Positions 19,773 through 54,027 of a DNA stretch of 64,000 bases are shown piece by piece. The stretch lies in NCBI RefSeq assembly GCF_003003265.1, contig NZ_PVTL01000006.1:186001-250000 (forward strand), written 5' to 3'. The stretch is from Glaciihabitans tibetensis (GTDB lineage: Bacteria > Actinomycetota > Actinomycetes > Actinomycetales > Microbacteriaceae). The stretch's first letter is position 1; every line of letters starts with the position of its first letter. The position numbers were made by a program, and so were the translations under genes. The notes beneath the pieces were generated by a model. That model was not told where the DNA came from, ran no database searches, and saw only the letters and a program-made list of their open reading frames with translations.

Positions 19773-21338
<1,566 letters not shown>

Positions 21339-21436
21339 GGCTGTGGCCGCTGCGGCCGCGGGTCTCTGTCGCGGCCGCCAAACTCCGGTCGCGGCCGCCG
21401 GTCTCGCCTGGCGCTCGCTGCGGTTGAACCGACTCA

Positions 21437-21510
21437 GCGTCCCGGATGGAGAAGACGTCTCCCGGACGGGACTATGACTCCATCCGGGACGCAGTATCTC
21501 CATCCGCGAG
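21437..21510. repeat. Inverted-pair array downstream of guaB
   Basis: CCCGGA words begin at 21441 and 21461 (20 bp apart) and inverted CATCCG words at 21481 and 21501 (again 20 bp apart). A perfect 15-bp inverted repeat (21437-21451 with 21478-21492) spans the array, so it can fold into a hairpin and may also end guaB transcripts. The remaining gene-free sequence 21339-21707 has three GCGGCCGC words just after guaB and otherwise nothing recognised. Confidence 0.85.
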
Positions 21511-21707
21511 CGGAGCGGGTGGGTCTTAGCAATGCCTGCCGCGTTCCCAGCAGTGCGCGATGAAGAGTTGACTGGGGAGGCCGACTCGCCCGGACGCGGT
21601 GGGAGCTGCGGGCCGACTTGCCCTGCACATCCACTGCGAGTACCGCGACATCCACCAGATCCCTCTTTGACGCGCGACCGCCACTGTCGAACTTCGAGGC
21701 TGGGGGA

Positions 21708-22649
21708 ATGACCTACACAAATTTGACCCGAAACGGGCTAATTCTCGCTGGTTCCCTTCGCCCATTTGTAACCGAGCGAGCTGTCGCGCGCGACGTAGCA
21801 GCTGGATCACTCGTGCGCGTGCGGCGTGGCGCATATGTTGAACGCGAGCGGTGGGAATCGGCGACGCCCCGCGAGCGCCACATTCTGCGCATCCACTCGG
21901 TCGTGGCGGCGACATCTAAACCCGTGGTGATTGGCGGGATGTCGGCTGCTGCACTCTGGGGCATGCCGGTGAAGGGTCCGTGGCCAACAGCTGTGACTGT
22001 GGTTGAGCCTCAGGAGCGAGGCGGACGGTCTGCCCCGGGTGTTCGGCGCACCAGTGTTGGATTCTCGTCTGCTTCGCTCGTCGAAGTTCACGGGGTCACC
22101 GTCACGGATCTGGCGCGCACCACCCTCGATGTCGCCCGCGTACACACCTTCACTGATGCGATAGGTTCCGCTGACTGGGCACTTTGGCGAAAAAACCCAC
22201 GTGGGATTTCGGTCAGCGACCTCACAGAAGAACTGTCGCGTATGGCGCCCCGCGCGGGGCGCGCTCACCTTGAGCGTGTCGCGGCGTTTGCCTCGCCTCT
22301 GTCAGACTCGTTCTACGAGTCAGCTGCTCGGGCCGCTATGCACCTGCTCGGGTTTGCTGCTCCAGAACTCCAGGTATCGATGAGGGACTCGCAGGGCGAG
22401 ATGTTCCCCGACTATTTCTGGCGCGACGTCCGGATCGCGGGGGAATTCGACGGCAAGGAAAAGTACATGCGACCCCAGTACTCCCCGCGGGCGCCAGGTG
22501 AAACCGTTTGGCAGGAAAAGAAACGGGAGGACCGACTTCGCGCACTCAATCTCGGGGTAGTGCGGATTCTGACCGAGCACGTAGAGAATCCGCAGCGGCT
22601 TGAGAGCCTGTTGGTATCCGCGGGCGTCCCGAGGATAGCGGGCCGGTGA
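21708..22649 (+). CDS. AbiEi-like antitoxin-domain protein with C-terminal DUF559/Vsr-like nuclease fold
   Basis: The 313-residue protein has an N-terminal part (about 1-190) with a helix-turn-helix-like start, LVRVRRGAYVERERW, RIHSVVAATSKPVVIGGMSAAALWGMP and VTVTDLARTTLDVARVHTFTDAI, the pattern of AbiEi-family (type IV) antitoxins. The C-terminus (about 215-305) has FPDYFWRDVRIAGEFDGKEKY and EKKREDRLRALNLGVVRI, resembling DUF559/Vsr PD-(D/E)XK folds, with possible active residues Asp, Glu and Lys. No AbiEii nucleotidyltransferase is adjacent, so it is an orphan. It has more uneven codon use than its neighbours and sits between guaB and guaB3, bracketed by repeat arrays. Function unproven. 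Confidence 0.75.
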   Translation: MTYTNLTRNGLILAGSLRPFVTERAVARDVAAGSLVRVRRGAYVERERWESATPRERHILRIHSVVAATSKPVVIGGMSAAALWGMPVKGPWPTAVTVVEPQERGGRSAPGVRRTSVGFSSASLVEVHGVTVTDLARTTLDVARVHTFTDAIGSADWALWRKNPRGISVSDLTEELSRMAPRAGRAHLERVAAFASPLSDSFYESAARAAMHLLGFAAPELQVSMRDSQGEMFPDYFWRDVRIAGEFDGKEKYMRPQYSPRAPGETVWQEKKREDRLRALNLGVVRILTEHVENPQRLESLLVSAGVPRIAGR

Positions 22650-22695
22650 TCCCGGGCGAGATCCGGCCCGGAGATTGCGAGCTGACTCGCTCGGC

Positions 22696-22868
22696 GCGGT
22701 AGAAGCCTGTTGGGCGCGGTAGACACCTGTTCCCGGAAAACTCATCGCGGTAGAAACCCACTCAATGCGGTAGTTGTTTCTACCGCATTGAGTGGGTTTC
22801 TGCCGCACCGAGCCCGGGCCTCTTCTCATAGGTGCAGATAACTACCGCGGCGAGCGGGCTTCTACCGC
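22696..22868. repeat. GCGGTAG inverted-pair array with a 27-bp hairpin
   Basis: GCGGTAG starts at 22696, 22716, 22747 and 22767; its complement CTACCGC (one copy CTGCCGC) starts at 22780, 22800, 22842 and 22862. Within each pair the spacing is exactly 20 bp. The inner part forms a hairpin with 27-base arms (22747-22773 and 22780-22806, one wobble) and a six-base loop. The rest of the 22650-23007 interval holds no gene. Confidence 0.93.
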
Positions 22869-22995
22869 GCTGAGGCGTCCAGCGCGTTCGCGTGCGGGTG
22901 CGCGGGCGGGCGCGGGTGCGGGGAGACCGGGCCGGCGGACAGCGCGGGTGACCGCACAGCGTGGCGGCCAGTGCCCGGGTGTCGTGCACCGCCGG

Positions 22996-23001
22996 TAGGC
23001 T
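22996..23001 (+). promoter_or_regulatory. Leaderless -10 box of guaB3
   Basis: TAGGCT lies with six bases between it and the GTG start at 23008; no ribosome-binding site is present. Confidence 0.5.
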
Positions 23002-23007
23002 GTACCG

Positions 23008-24129
23008 GTGAGTGACATCGAGATCGGACGCGCCAAGCGCGCTCGCCGCGCATACGCCTTTGACGATATTGCCGTTGTGCCGAGCAGGCGCACGCGCGAT
23101 CCGAAGGACGTATCCATCAGCTGGACCATCGACGCCTACACCTTCTCCATCCCGGTGCTTGCCGCCCCGATGGACTCCGTGGTGAGCCCGGCGACCGCGA
23201 TCGCCATCGGCAAGCTGGGCGGGCTGGGCGTGCTCGACCTTGAGGGTGTCTGGGCCCGGTACGACGACCCGGAGCCGCTGCTCGCGGAGATCCAGCACCT
23301 GTCGCCCGAGAACGCGACGGTGCGCATGCAGGAGATCTACTCCGCACCGATCAAGCCCGAGCTGATCCGTGACCGGCTCGCCGAGATTCGAGCAGCGGGT
23401 GTTCCCGTCGCCGGTGCGCTCAGCCCGCAGCGCACGCAGGAGTTCTACAAGACGGTTGTGGCGGCCGGCGTGGACATGTTCGTGATCCGCGGCACCACCG
23501 TGAGCGCCGAGCACGTGTCGCGCTCCACCGAGCCCCTCAACCTCAAGAAGTTCATTTACGAGCTCGACGTTCCCGTCATCGTCGGTGGCGCCGCGACCTA
23601 CACCGCGGCTTTGCACCTCATGCGTACGGGTGCCGCGGGCGTGCTTGTCGGATTCGGTGGCGGCGCAGCATCCACCACCCGGGCCAGCCTGGGAATCCAC
23701 GCTCCCATGGCAACGGCCGTAGCGGATGTCGCGGGTGCACGCCGTGACTACCTCGACGAGTCCGGCGGGCGCTACGTTCACGTCATCGCCGACGGCGGCC
23801 TTGGCACCAGCGGCGACATCGTCAAGGCGATTTCGGTCGGTGCGGACGCCGTCATGCTCGGCAGCACTCTCGCCCGCGCGACCGACGCACCCGGAGCCGG
23901 CTGGCACTGGGGCACCGAGTCGCACCACAGCGAACTTCCCCGCGGCAATCGCGTCGAGGTCGGCAGCGTTGCCCCGCTCGAGCAGATCCTGTTCGGTCCG
24001 GGCACCGTTGCAGACGGTCGTGTGAACCTGATGGGGGCGTTGCGCCGGTCGATGGCCACCACGGGATACTCCGACCTCAAGGAGTTCCAGCGCGTCGAGG
24101 TAGTTGTCGCGCCGTACACACAGCGGTAG
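23008..24129 (+). CDS. guaB3: GuaB3 family IMP dehydrogenase-related protein
   Basis: A 373-residue IMPDH/GMP-reductase-fold barrel without CBS domains. VLAAPMDSVVSPATAIAIGKLGGLGVLDLEG, VIVGGAATYTAALHLMRTGAAGVLVG and VIADGGLGTSGDIVKAISVGADAVMLGS match GuaB3. Aligned with GuaB, the catalytic loop GSICTTR reads AASTTR, so Ser222 stands where the nucleophilic Cys is needed; IMP dehydrogenation by the standard mechanism is unlikely. Its role in actinobacteria is not settled. The gene normally lies close behind guaB; here 1.7 kb of other sequence intervenes. Confidence 0.92.
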   Translation: MSDIEIGRAKRARRAYAFDDIAVVPSRRTRDPKDVSISWTIDAYTFSIPVLAAPMDSVVSPATAIAIGKLGGLGVLDLEGVWARYDDPEPLLAEIQHLSPENATVRMQEIYSAPIKPELIRDRLAEIRAAGVPVAGALSPQRTQEFYKTVVAAGVDMFVIRGTTVSAEHVSRSTEPLNLKKFIYELDVPVIVGGAATYTAALHLMRTGAAGVLVGFGGGAASTTRASLGIHAPMATAVADVAGARRDYLDESGGRYVHVIADGGLGTSGDIVKAISVGADAVMLGSTLARATDAPGAGWHWGTESHHSELPRGNRVEVGSVAPLEQILFGPGTVADGRVNLMGALRRSMATTGYSDLKEFQRVEVVVAPYTQR

Positions 24130-45216: not shown

Positions 45217-45300
45217 AGATTCGGTGAAGGTGGGCAACTGGTTGTATCCCTGCTGTGAAAAGGGGGCGGCGATGGGATGCTCCATCGGGGGCTGGCCTAA

Positions 45301-45319
45301 TTAGGTAAGGCTTGCCTTA
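45301..45319. promoter_or_regulatory. DtxR/IdeR-type iron box 1
   Basis: TTAGGTAAGGCTTGCCTTA agrees with the DtxR consensus TTAGGTTAGGCTAACCTAA at 15 of 19 positions. It lies between the divergent htaA-like and hmuO genes and implies repression when iron is sufficient. Confidence 0.75.
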
Positions 45320-45320
45320 A

Positions 45321-45339
45321 TTAGGTAGTCCTACCCTAG
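45321..45339. promoter_or_regulatory. DtxR/IdeR-type iron box 2
   Basis: TTAGGTAGTCCTACCCTAG agrees with the same consensus at about 13 of 19 positions and lies two bases from box 1, close to the hmuO promoter (start codon at 45394). Confidence 0.6.
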
Positions 45340-51515: not shown

Positions 51516-52109
51516 GTGCTGTCACTCGTGGTTCTTATCTCCGGCGGCGGATCGAACCTTCGCGCTCTCCTCGAGGCGTCGGAGGACGCAGAGTTCCCCG
51601 CCCGTGTCGTCGCTGTCGGCGCCGACCGCGACGCTGACGGGTTCGAGCACGCCGAGGCCTACGGCATTCCCACCTTCGCCACGGCGCTGTCCAACTTTCC
51701 CGACCGCGACGCCTGGGGCGAGGCGCTGGTCGAGCAAATCGAGGTATGGCAACCCGACCTGGTGATCCTCAGCGGGTTTATGAAGCTGTTGCCCCCGCGG
51801 GTCATCGAGGCGCTCGGCCCCAACCTGATCAACACCCATCCGGCATACCTTCCGGAGTTTCCCGGTGCCCACGGCGTGCGCGACGCCCTCGCCGCGGGCG
51901 TGCAGCAGACCGGCGCCAGCGTCATCCTGGTCGATAACGGGGTGGACTCCGGACCCATCATCGCCCAGCAGCGGGTCGCCGTACTGCCGGGTGACACGGA
52001 ACATTCCCTCCACGAGCGCATCAAACCCGTGGAGCGGGAGCTTCTTATCCAGGCGGTGCTCGACATCGCCAACGGCCACATCAATCTCAAGGAGCTAGCT
52101 ACCGCATGA
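51516..52109 (+). CDS. purN: Phosphoribosylglycinamide formyltransferase
   Basis: Third step of purine synthesis, using 10-formyl-THF. The 197-residue enzyme has [17 protein letters not shown] (phosphate loop), [20 protein letters not shown], the catalytic [46 protein letters not shown] with Asn, His and Asp, and ERIKPVER. Note LPEFPGAHG where many enzymes have LPSFPGAHG. ATGA overlap with purH. Confidence 0.96.
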
Positions 52110-53833
52110 GCGGACCTTCGCACGATCCTGCCCTGTACCGCCCCCGCGACGTGGTGCCGATCCGCCGAGCGCTCGTCTCGGTGAGCGACAAAACCGGACT
52201 GACCCGGCTTGCCGCGGCCCTCGCCGCCGCCGGGGTCGAAATTGTCTCGACCGGCTCGACCGCGAAGACGATTGCGGCCAGCGGTGTTCCGGTCACCGAG
52301 GTGGCCGAGGTCACCGGGTACCCGGAGTCCCTCGACGGACGCGTGCGCACCCTGCACCCGGCCATCCACTCCGGCCTGCTCGCCGACCTCCGCCTCGAGT
52401 CGCACGAACGCGAGCTCGCCGAGCAGGGAATCGCCCCGTTCGAGCTGGTTGTCTCCAACCTGTACCCGTTCGTCGAGACCATCCGCGCGGGAGTCACCGG
52501 CGACGAGGCCGTCGAGCAGATCGACATCGGGGGACCCGCAATGGTGCGAGCCTCCGCGAAGAACCACGCGAACGTCGCCATCGTCACCTCGCCTGACCAG
52601 TACCTTCTGGTCGAGGAGGCACTCGCCGCCGGGGGAACGTCGCTGCTGCAGCGCCGCGAGCTGGCAGCCGAAGCCTTCGCGCACACCGCTGGGTACGACG
52701 CCGCGGTAGCCGAGTGGTTCGCGACATCCCCGTTCGACCAGCCAGGGACGTCGCCTGACCAGGCAAGGACTTTGTCTTCTCAGGGGGATGCCACGCCCGC
52801 AACCGCCGCGCCAACGTCGACTTTCGCCAGCTCCACCGCAGCTGCAGGTACTGCCACGCCCGCAACCGCCGACGCGGCATCCACCGTCCCCGAGCACATC
52901 GAATTCTCGGGCACGCTCAAGCAGGTGCTCCGCTACGGCGAGAACAGCCACCAGTCGGCCGCCCTGTACCTGCGTGAAGACGGCCGCGGCATCGCGCAGG
53001 CCGAACAGCTGCATGGCAAGGGGATGTCGTACAACAACTTTGTCGATGCGGATGCCGCGTTGCGAGCCGCGTTCGACTTCGACGAACCCGCCGTCGCCAT
53101 CATCAAACACGCGAATCCCTGTGGCATCGCCGTGGCCGCCCGGGTCGGAGACCCGATCGCCAGCGCCCACCGCCGCGCCCACGACTGCGACCCCGTTTCC
53201 GCGTTCGGGGGCGTCATCGCGGCGAACCGCGTGGTCACGCTCGAAGCCGCCGAGGCGATCAAGGACATCTTCACCGAGGTTGTGGTTGCGCCCGGGTTCG
53301 AACCGGAGGCGCTTGCACTGCTGAGCACCAAGAAGAACCTGCGGCTGCTGCAGCTTCCGGCGGACTACGCGCGCGAGGCCACCGAGGTCAAGCAGGTTTC
53401 CGGCGGGCTGCTCACGCAGTCGGTCGACACCCATTTCGCGCCCTTCGACGAGTGGACGCTCGCGGCAGGTGAACCCGCGGATGAGGCAACCCGGGCAGAC
53501 CTCGAGTTCGCCTGGCGTGCGGTACGCGCGGTGAAGTCGAACGGCATCCTGCTCGCCCACGCTGGCGCGTCCGTCGGTGTGGGCATGGGCCAGGTGAACC
53601 GGGTTGACTCGTGCCACCTCGCCGTCACCCGCGCGGGGGAGCGCGCCGCCGGGAGTGTCGCCGCCTCCGACGCCTTCTTCCCGTTCGCTGATGGGCTGGA
53701 AGTGCTGCTCGCGGCGGGGGTACGCGCGGTCGTGCAGCCCGGCGGTTCCGTGCGGGACGCCGAGGTCATCGCCGCGGCCAATGCAGCCGGCGTGACGATG
53801 TACTTCACGGGTGAGCGCCACTTCTTCCACTAA
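52106..53833 (+). CDS. purH: Bifunctional AICAR formyltransferase/IMP cyclohydrolase
   Basis: Last two steps to IMP. The 575-residue protein has the cyclohydrolase/MGS-like domain (about 18-205: [43 protein letters not shown]) and the transformylase domain (about 265-575: [27 protein letters not shown] with the catalytic Lys-His, [14 protein letters not shown], ending [14 protein letters not shown] and [10 protein letters not shown]). Between them, residues about 210-262 (52733-52891) are an Ala/Thr/Ser/Pro-rich insert not found in ordinary PurH, explaining the extra about 45 residues. Confidence 0.96.
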
Positions 53834-53867: not shown

Positions 53868-53899
53868 CTCGCGGCACCGGACATGTCCGGTGCCGCGAG
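53868..53899. repeat. 32-bp perfect palindrome after purH, part of a 20-bp-spaced array
   Basis: CTCGCGGCACCGGACA is followed by its exact inverse. A further CCGGTGCC at 53907 lies 20 bp after the one at 53887. As RNA it would be a strong hairpin and may terminate purNH, but no T run follows. Confidence 0.85.
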
Positions 53900-54027
53900 C
53901 AGGTTTCCGGTGCCGGGAGCCTAGCGCGCGCCCGGGCGGGAGAAACTGCGCCACTTCCGAGTCCCGGAGGCTCGCTGTGGCCCGGCTCCGGGAGTTTGGA
54001 GCTCCGGGAGGGCTAGCTGCGCGCTTC

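Follow-up and report, generated by a model that had tools for sequence, protein, structure and literature searches.

A predicted AbiEi–Vsr-like protein flanked by 20-bp repeat arrays in Glaciihabitans tibetensis resembles, and differs from, REPIN/RAYT systems

REPIN/RAYT systems join REP sequences (GTAG/CGTC REPs) to a Y1 (HUH) tyrosine transposase, the RAYT. The companion gene is present in a single copy and has short inverted repeats on its flanks; further copies of these repeats are spread through extragenic space, with repeat words that differ by genome and sites that lie mostly 3′ of genes (PMC3116915; PMC3733652, in the parts drawn on here). RAYTs have been proposed to promote the copying of REPINs (PMC3116915). 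Two protein groups described in other settings also bear on the locus studied here. In AbiE type IV toxin–antitoxin systems (AbiEi, Rv2827c), the antitoxin has an AbiEii nucleotidyltransferase toxin as neighbour and binds inverted repeats in the promoter. AbiEi does so as monomers, on 23-bp inverted repeats that stand in twos or fours (PMC7319586). The Vsr-like nucleases of the PD-(D/E)XK type include Vsr, the homing endonuclease I-Bth0305I and, remotely, TnsA of Tn7. Searches of open papers turned up no account in which dispersed repeats are associated with AbiEi/DUF559/Vsr-like proteins.

We analysed a window of 64,000 nucleotides from the 3.73-Mb draft genome of Glaciihabitans tibetensis (G000:C6:186001-250000), in which the gene for a protein termed P0001 lies between guaB and guaB3, with a repeat array on either side. 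Like REPIN/RAYT, this is a single-copy gene flanked by short inverted repeats (flanking that does not extend to every homologue), the repeats are also dispersed extragenically, the words differ by genome and the sites are mostly 3′ of genes. Unlike REPIN/RAYT, P0001 is predicted to be AbiEi-like and Vsr-like rather than a Y1/HUH transposase, the copies keep to a 19–20-bp lattice and are direct as well as inverted, and the host group, the actinobacteria, goes unmentioned in the part of PMC3733652 drawn on here. A search of the genome (93% complete) with PF01797 (Y1_Tnp) at E ≤ 0.01 gave no match, which argues against a RAYT behind the arrays. Because no Y1 transposase was matched and the flanked protein has a different fold, the system is not REPIN/RAYT itself; it appears to work like one, with a predicted AbiE-like DNA-binding fold.

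The gene and its arrays thus look like an undescribed enzyme-plus-repeat system, resembling REPIN/RAYT but distinct from it. If this is true, a very common and unexplained protein family would be linked to its DNA targets, and a REPIN/RAYT-like partnership would have arisen around an enzyme that has no kinship with Y1 transposases. For actinobacteria, there would be a system of dispersed repeats and a named candidate for its enzyme. Since every gene has its own word alongside, DNA recognition and its evolution would be readable directly from sequence.

Two repeat arrays flank the gene

Features around the gene, in window coordinates (arrays carry no strand):
19836-21338, guaB, the 5′ neighbour of the interval that holds P0001
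21368..21399, + strand, direct pair of GTCGCGGCCGCC at 21368 and 21388 (lag 20), a third word upstream of array A
21437..21510, array A: two direct units (..GGATGGAG, GGACGGGA), a 6-nt centre and two inverted units (CTCCATCC), lag 20
21708..22649, + strand, P0001, 313 aa: AbiEi-antitoxin-like domain (1-196) and Vsr-like nuclease domain (199-309)
22694..22868, array B: GCGGTAG four times, a centre, then CTACCGC/CTGCCGC four times, pairs at lag 20
23008-24129, guaB3 (TIGR01304 match)

The P0001 frame is open over 21708-22649, and several orthologues have the same start methionine. A preliminary description of this DNA had placed an array on either side of the gene, and both are found there. It gave them a common plan of two direct plus two inverted sites, which fits array A, whereas array B has four plus four. 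In array A, TCCCGGATGG at 21440 and TCCCGGACGG at 21460 are followed by the centre CTATGA (21472-21477) and then by CTCCATCC at 21478 and 21498. The direct half of array B has GCGGTAG at 22696, 22716, 22747 and 22767; the inverted half has CTACCGC at 22780, CTGCCGC at 22800 and CTACCGC at 22842 and 22862. These halves are joined across the 6-nt centre TTGTTT (22774-22779), and neighbours inside pairs are 20 bp apart. The arrays are capable of self-pairing.

Because arrays A and B have different words, the upstream and downstream flanks of P0001 share only 12 nt in an exact-word comparison. The preliminary description was right that the words differ, but the designs do not appear unrelated. Set in one orientation and compared by eye, the words of A, of B, of a family C described below and of relatives fit a common frame of about CTCGCGG, six variable bases and about seven further bases, which often start AAAC; the frame gives the 20-bp step. 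On this by-eye reading, A and B would each be a variant of a single framework. Arrays A and C could hold earlier words from this lineage.

Predicted fold of P0001

The AlphaFold2 model of P0001 (31 sequences) has a pLDDT of 89.9. In this predicted model, residues 1-196 resemble AbiEi (6y8q; Z 11.4, rmsd 6.2, 175 aligned), and residues ~198-309 resemble I-Bth0305I at Z 10.7 and Vsr (1cw0) at Z 10.2. The likeness of these residues to TnsA is weaker (Z 7.2) and, with Z below 8, may reflect a common arrangement only. The top Foldseek match of the model is also AbiEi, at an E value of only 3e-03. Pfam matches to AbiEi_4 and AbiEi_1 are below cut-off, so the naming of the gene as AbiEi-like, already made in the preliminary description, stands on the PADLOC AbiEi models (best E 3.8e-07) and on the predicted fold. 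Structure prediction, which that description had proposed for the nuclease site, returned a Vsr-like fold. Acidic residues in this half are conserved: E204, D235, E246, D248 and K252 do not vary across all 31 homologues and presumably form the nuclease active site.

P0001 shares with AbiEi the predicted fold of its N-terminal half, but it carries an additional nuclease domain, and its 19–20-bp repeats lie on both flanks and are dispersed. As had been noted from the sequence, no AbiEii toxin is present among the five proteins scanned (P0001, guaB, guaB3, glycerol-3-phosphate dehydrogenase and a permease), and with no toxin neighbour among them a reading of P0001 as part of an AbiE toxin–antitoxin pair is unsupported. 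Its C-terminal half shares with Vsr-like nucleases the predicted fold and conserved acidic residues; unlike them, it is fused to an AbiEi-like domain and has no mismatch-repair, intron or Tn7 setting. The family is large, with P0001 matches in 107 of 150 genomes of its own taxonomic family and P0001-family matches at E ≤ 1e-20 in 150 of 201 genomes of the family of Williamsia.

Conservation of the gene's position

Homologues of P0001 lie beside guaB and/or guaB3 at 12 of 19 relative loci and at 14 of 14 close loci (≥47% identity; some loci are common to the two sets). The close loci come from records named Glaciihabitans, Lacisediminihabitans, Salinibacterium and Galbitalea and from several MAGs. 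The gene is therefore an old resident. On this synteny we reject a recent insertion of gene and arrays, and the small inserted unit suggested by the preliminary description is not supported. Eight of the 14 close loci (L179, L180, L182-L186, L188) have, after the stop codon, a dyad whose 9-nt arms differ by at most one mismatch and enclose a 6-nt centre; such a dyad is absent downstream in L178, L181, L187, L189, L190 and L191. In a genome of the same genus (G052), as in G022 and G039, arrays with GGCGGGAG or GGAGGGAG words occupy both gene flanks.

Near the ends of loci L183 and L186, a second P0001-like gene (~34–35% identical) lies beyond a glycerol-3-phosphate dehydrogenase gene, and in L061 and L065 the family gene itself adjoins such a gene. 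A remote paralogue in the same genome as P0001 (C3:62204, 24%) belongs to another subfamily; its flanks share only 9 nt, and it served as a negative control.

Repeats in the flanks of the gene family

Exact words of at least 15 nt are common to both 350-bp flanks in 23 of 55 family rows. No control gene reaches that length: the longest shared word is 13 nt among 65 neighbouring genes and 14 nt among 185 random genes. The 55 rows comprise hits of at least 150 query residues with flanks of at least 150 bases; five pairs of rows are the same or nearly the same locus (L051/L179, L053/L182, L054/L184, L055/L187, L056/L190), three of the 23 positives are duplicate loci, and the locus of P0001 itself is not among the 23. 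In the Williamsia-family set, such words occur in 15 of 30 loci, with only 9 local control genes (longest 13); two of the 15 are Williamsia loci already counted, and L264 and L265 repeat L207 and L208. Close relatives occur within the sets (for example, L198-L200 with L204; L269, L270 and L273), which are thus not fully independent.

Direct repeats of at least 7 nt at lag 19 are found in the flanks of 24 of 35 distant, 24 of 30 Williamsia-family and 6 of 15 close homologues, against 3 of 120 control genes; at lag 20 the counts are 7/35, 7/30 and 7/15, against 1/120 (five duplicate loci were omitted from the close group). Lag 42 is also frequent in the close group (11 of 15) and, being a multiple of three, probably derives from the guaB coding end within the flank. 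Across 84 partly redundant rows, lag-19 repeats lie downstream in 45, upstream in 37 and on both sides in 26; lag 19 or 20 occurs somewhere in 72 rows and neither in 12.

The words themselves vary widely from locus to locus, as displayed for 12 hand-picked loci, so a single inherited array does not account for the repeats. The 37%-identical gene of G123 is surrounded by lag-20 arrays with related words, and this genome has a dyad with a 6-nt centre at five further sites; Williamsia combines lag 19 with a 6-nt centre. Gene-flanking arrays are set as a dyad with such a centre in the guaB clade, G123 and Williamsia; a centre-gap profile over the family flanks showed no general excess at 6 nt, so this centre is not universal. 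REPIN/RAYT palindromes have a GTAG-type tag at one end. In the guaB clade, GTAG or GGAG closes the word on the side that adjoins the centre and not at the outer end, and other clades have other words.

These observations bear on the alternative offered in the preliminary description, that the arrays are targets of the protein, which is well supported: arrays with other words flank the genes of relatives, lag-19/20 repeats stand beside most family members, and a word that flanks the gene is also scattered elsewhere in that genome. P0001 is likely to bind its arrays. Two kinds of finding that the description had counted against its reading do occur in part, namely arrays at other intergenic sites of this genome and relatives with the gene in the guaB–guaB3 interval but no lag-19/20 repeats (for example, L052, L059, L180, L189 and L191); they do not overturn it.

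Dispersed copies in the same genome

Pairs of GCGGTAG at lag 20 occur at about ten places in the genome, including the P0001 locus, with the same plan wherever the array is complete. The pattern GCGGTAG-N13-GCGGTAG (≤1 mismatch) has 15 matches per strand genome-wide, compared with 4 for the reversed pattern. Despite these dispersed copies, arrays are rare in the intergenic DNA sampled: there was no lag-20 run of at least 8 nt in 54 kb of intergenic DNA, as defined by a purpose-made gene caller, out of 400 kb of other sequence from this genome. Copies of array B keep the GCGGTAG word while their spacers vary. Array A-type copies are at C7:1821, C6:25872 and C5:531, and another adjoins a B array at C6:44.3 kb. 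A third word, CTCGCGGCACCGG, is found at 53868 of the window and at other places in the genome, and families A, B and C are often side by side, 3′ of genes.

Features further along the window (no strand):
53868..53919, family C array: dyad CTCGCGGCACCGG-ACATGT-CCGGTGCCGCGAG plus one unit at lag 20
53962..54012, A-like words TCCCGGAGG and CTCCGGGAG, off a clean 20-bp step and read by eye, possibly a decayed array

The family C array follows the end of a gene (52106-53833), with the A-like words just past it. A B array at L073:15761-15823 (G000:C6 ~265760-265830) contains a tandem duplication of 31 bp (CTACCGCGCCGACATCGCGGGGCGACAG..), and local duplication may thus be a further way in which arrays grow. 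At G000:C9:1906-1992, 10-bp tandem repeats of CTCGCGGCGG immediately precede a B array.

Dispersed copies in other genomes

In G000, G022, G039, G052, G127, G123, G050, G120 and Williamsia, words from the gene flanks are found again in intergenic DNA elsewhere in the genome. In the sister genomes G050 and G120, the flank word has 99 and 39 copies (both strands, ≤1 mismatch) compared with 0–2 in each of 18 other genomes. Among 52 plus/minus word pairs less than 200 bp apart in G050, 24 have a spacing of exactly 109 bp; other spacings cluster at 89–90 (7) and 148–149 (14), which are steps near 20 or 39. The two Williamsia genomes have nine dyads each (≤1 mismatch; six and five exact) against one and none for the reversed control, and two of the nine surround the gene in each genome.

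The core GCGGKAG-N6-CTMCCGC occurs 42 times in G039, 22 in G052, 11 in G127, 6 in G000, 5 in G123, 4 in G022 and 3 in G076, with 0–2 copies in the remaining 143 of 150 genomes; its reversed control, poorly matched in composition, gives 0–12, often above the 0–2 background of the pattern itself. Six of these seven genomes belong to the nine with the best P0001 matches, among which G029, G143 and G048 lack the core dyad. Genomes and loci are related, so that counts and co-occurrence are not all independent evidence. G122, of the same genus and 86% complete, has neither a P0001 match nor the core dyad. A core private to the species was considered and rejected: the exact form GCGGTAG-WWDWWW-CTACCGC is found, of 150 genomes, in that of P0001 only, until the G/T variant is allowed.

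The pattern CTCGCGG-N13-CTCGCGG is informative for G022 and partly for G000 and G008; most other matches look like chance. In G008, CTCGCGG is paired at lag 20 four times, and in three of these pairs GACCCG follows the first CTCGCGG; this suggests that G008, from a different genus, carries a further word of the common framework. In G076, with the third-closest gene, 400 kb of sequence include 45 kb of intergenic DNA with a single lag-20 run, which is no excess; in G078, dispersed copies are not above background in 260 kb sampled outside the gene's own flanks; and 138 kb of G134 hold, apart from the elements that flank the gene, one more.

Potential mechanism and alternatives

We consider it somewhat probable that P0001 is the single-copy companion protein of a short dispersed repeat family, and that its nuclease promotes the copying of the arrays in a REPIN/RAYT-like partnership with an unrelated enzyme. 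Because AbiEi monomers bind 23-bp inverted repeats, the natural reading is that each ~20-bp unit would bind one protomer through its AbiEi-like half. The dyad would then place two nuclease domains face to face, and nicking or cutting at the dyad or at a target could lead to repair that copies the element to new sites. By analogy with RAYTs, it is plausible that P0001 spreads the arrays. The wider proposal, to which we give an evenly balanced judgement, is that actinobacteria have a widespread and independently evolved counterpart of REPIN/RAYT, formed by vertically inherited AbiEi–Vsr fusion nucleases that each co-evolve with their own word on a 19–20-bp lattice and each propagate dispersed arrays through the nuclease.

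Alternatively, a different transposase or recombinase could spread the arrays as non-autonomous mobile elements, with the AbiEi–Vsr protein only binding them, for example in restraint or self-regulation. AbiEi proteins are known autoregulators that bind inverted repeats (PMC7319586), and any mobile element would fit both the fixed-length elements with inverted ends in G050 (the 24 pairs at 109-bp spacing) and their differing presence in sister genomes. Of the 36 G050 elements, 21 were mapped (13 unmapped, 2 not syntenic), and 13 of the 21 are present at the syntenic G120 site while 8 are absent. In the other direction, 13 of 14 G120 elements were mappable and all 13 were called present in G050, three of them on long intervals of 892–1238 bp, one with a single word near the interval end. 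The mapping covered groups away from stretch ends with words in both orientations, and these presence differences do not give a direction (gain or loss). As in an IS-derived MITE, the ends in G050 are inverted at fixed spacing; at the eight filled/empty pairs, no clean borders or target duplications are readable. A different mobilizing enzyme leaves unexplained the invariant nuclease-type site of P0001 and the frequent bracketing of the gene downstream as well as upstream, and the Y1 transposase search of the genome gave no match. We regard this alternative as unlikely.

Less likely again is a non-mobile system, in which P0001 would be a regulator or chromosome-organizing factor with sites scattered by selection, its nuclease half protecting the cell or editing DNA at those sites. 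This would suit a site spacing that holds a helical step of about two turns and an arrangement of arrays after stop codons and between convergent genes: by flanking genes, 8 of 12 scored G052 dyads are convergent and none divergent, and 4 of 8 B arrays in the genome of P0001 are convergent, with one doubtful divergent call. Neighbour orientations are approximate, as they come from a codon-score gene-finding script that missed the AbiEi gene itself, and one of these arrays (L073:15728) adjoins a doubtful gene call. Yet regulators usually keep their target genes, and here 8 of 21 elements differ between sister genomes; placement 3′ of genes is, moreover, ill-suited to promoter control. Positions also differ between two species of one genus, in that the genes flanking the eight B arrays of G000 and those flanking 13 listed of the 22 G052 dyads have no homologous pair in common at E ≤ 1e-20. 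Dispersed positions thus seem to turn over while the arrays that flank the gene persist.

That the arrays are transcription terminators or mRNA-end hairpins unlinked to the protein is highly improbable: their position after stop codons and between convergent genes and their capacity for self-pairing would fit, but a scan of 21300-23010 found no terminator-like site, the GCGGTAG word is kept in B copies whose spacers vary, arrays are rare in the intergenic DNA sampled, and enrichment beside one gene family is not predicted.

Elsewhere in the window, at 45298-45330, TAATTAGGTA recurs at lag 20 around AAGGCTTGCC, a repeat that we take to be reminiscent of an actinobacterial iron-regulator box.
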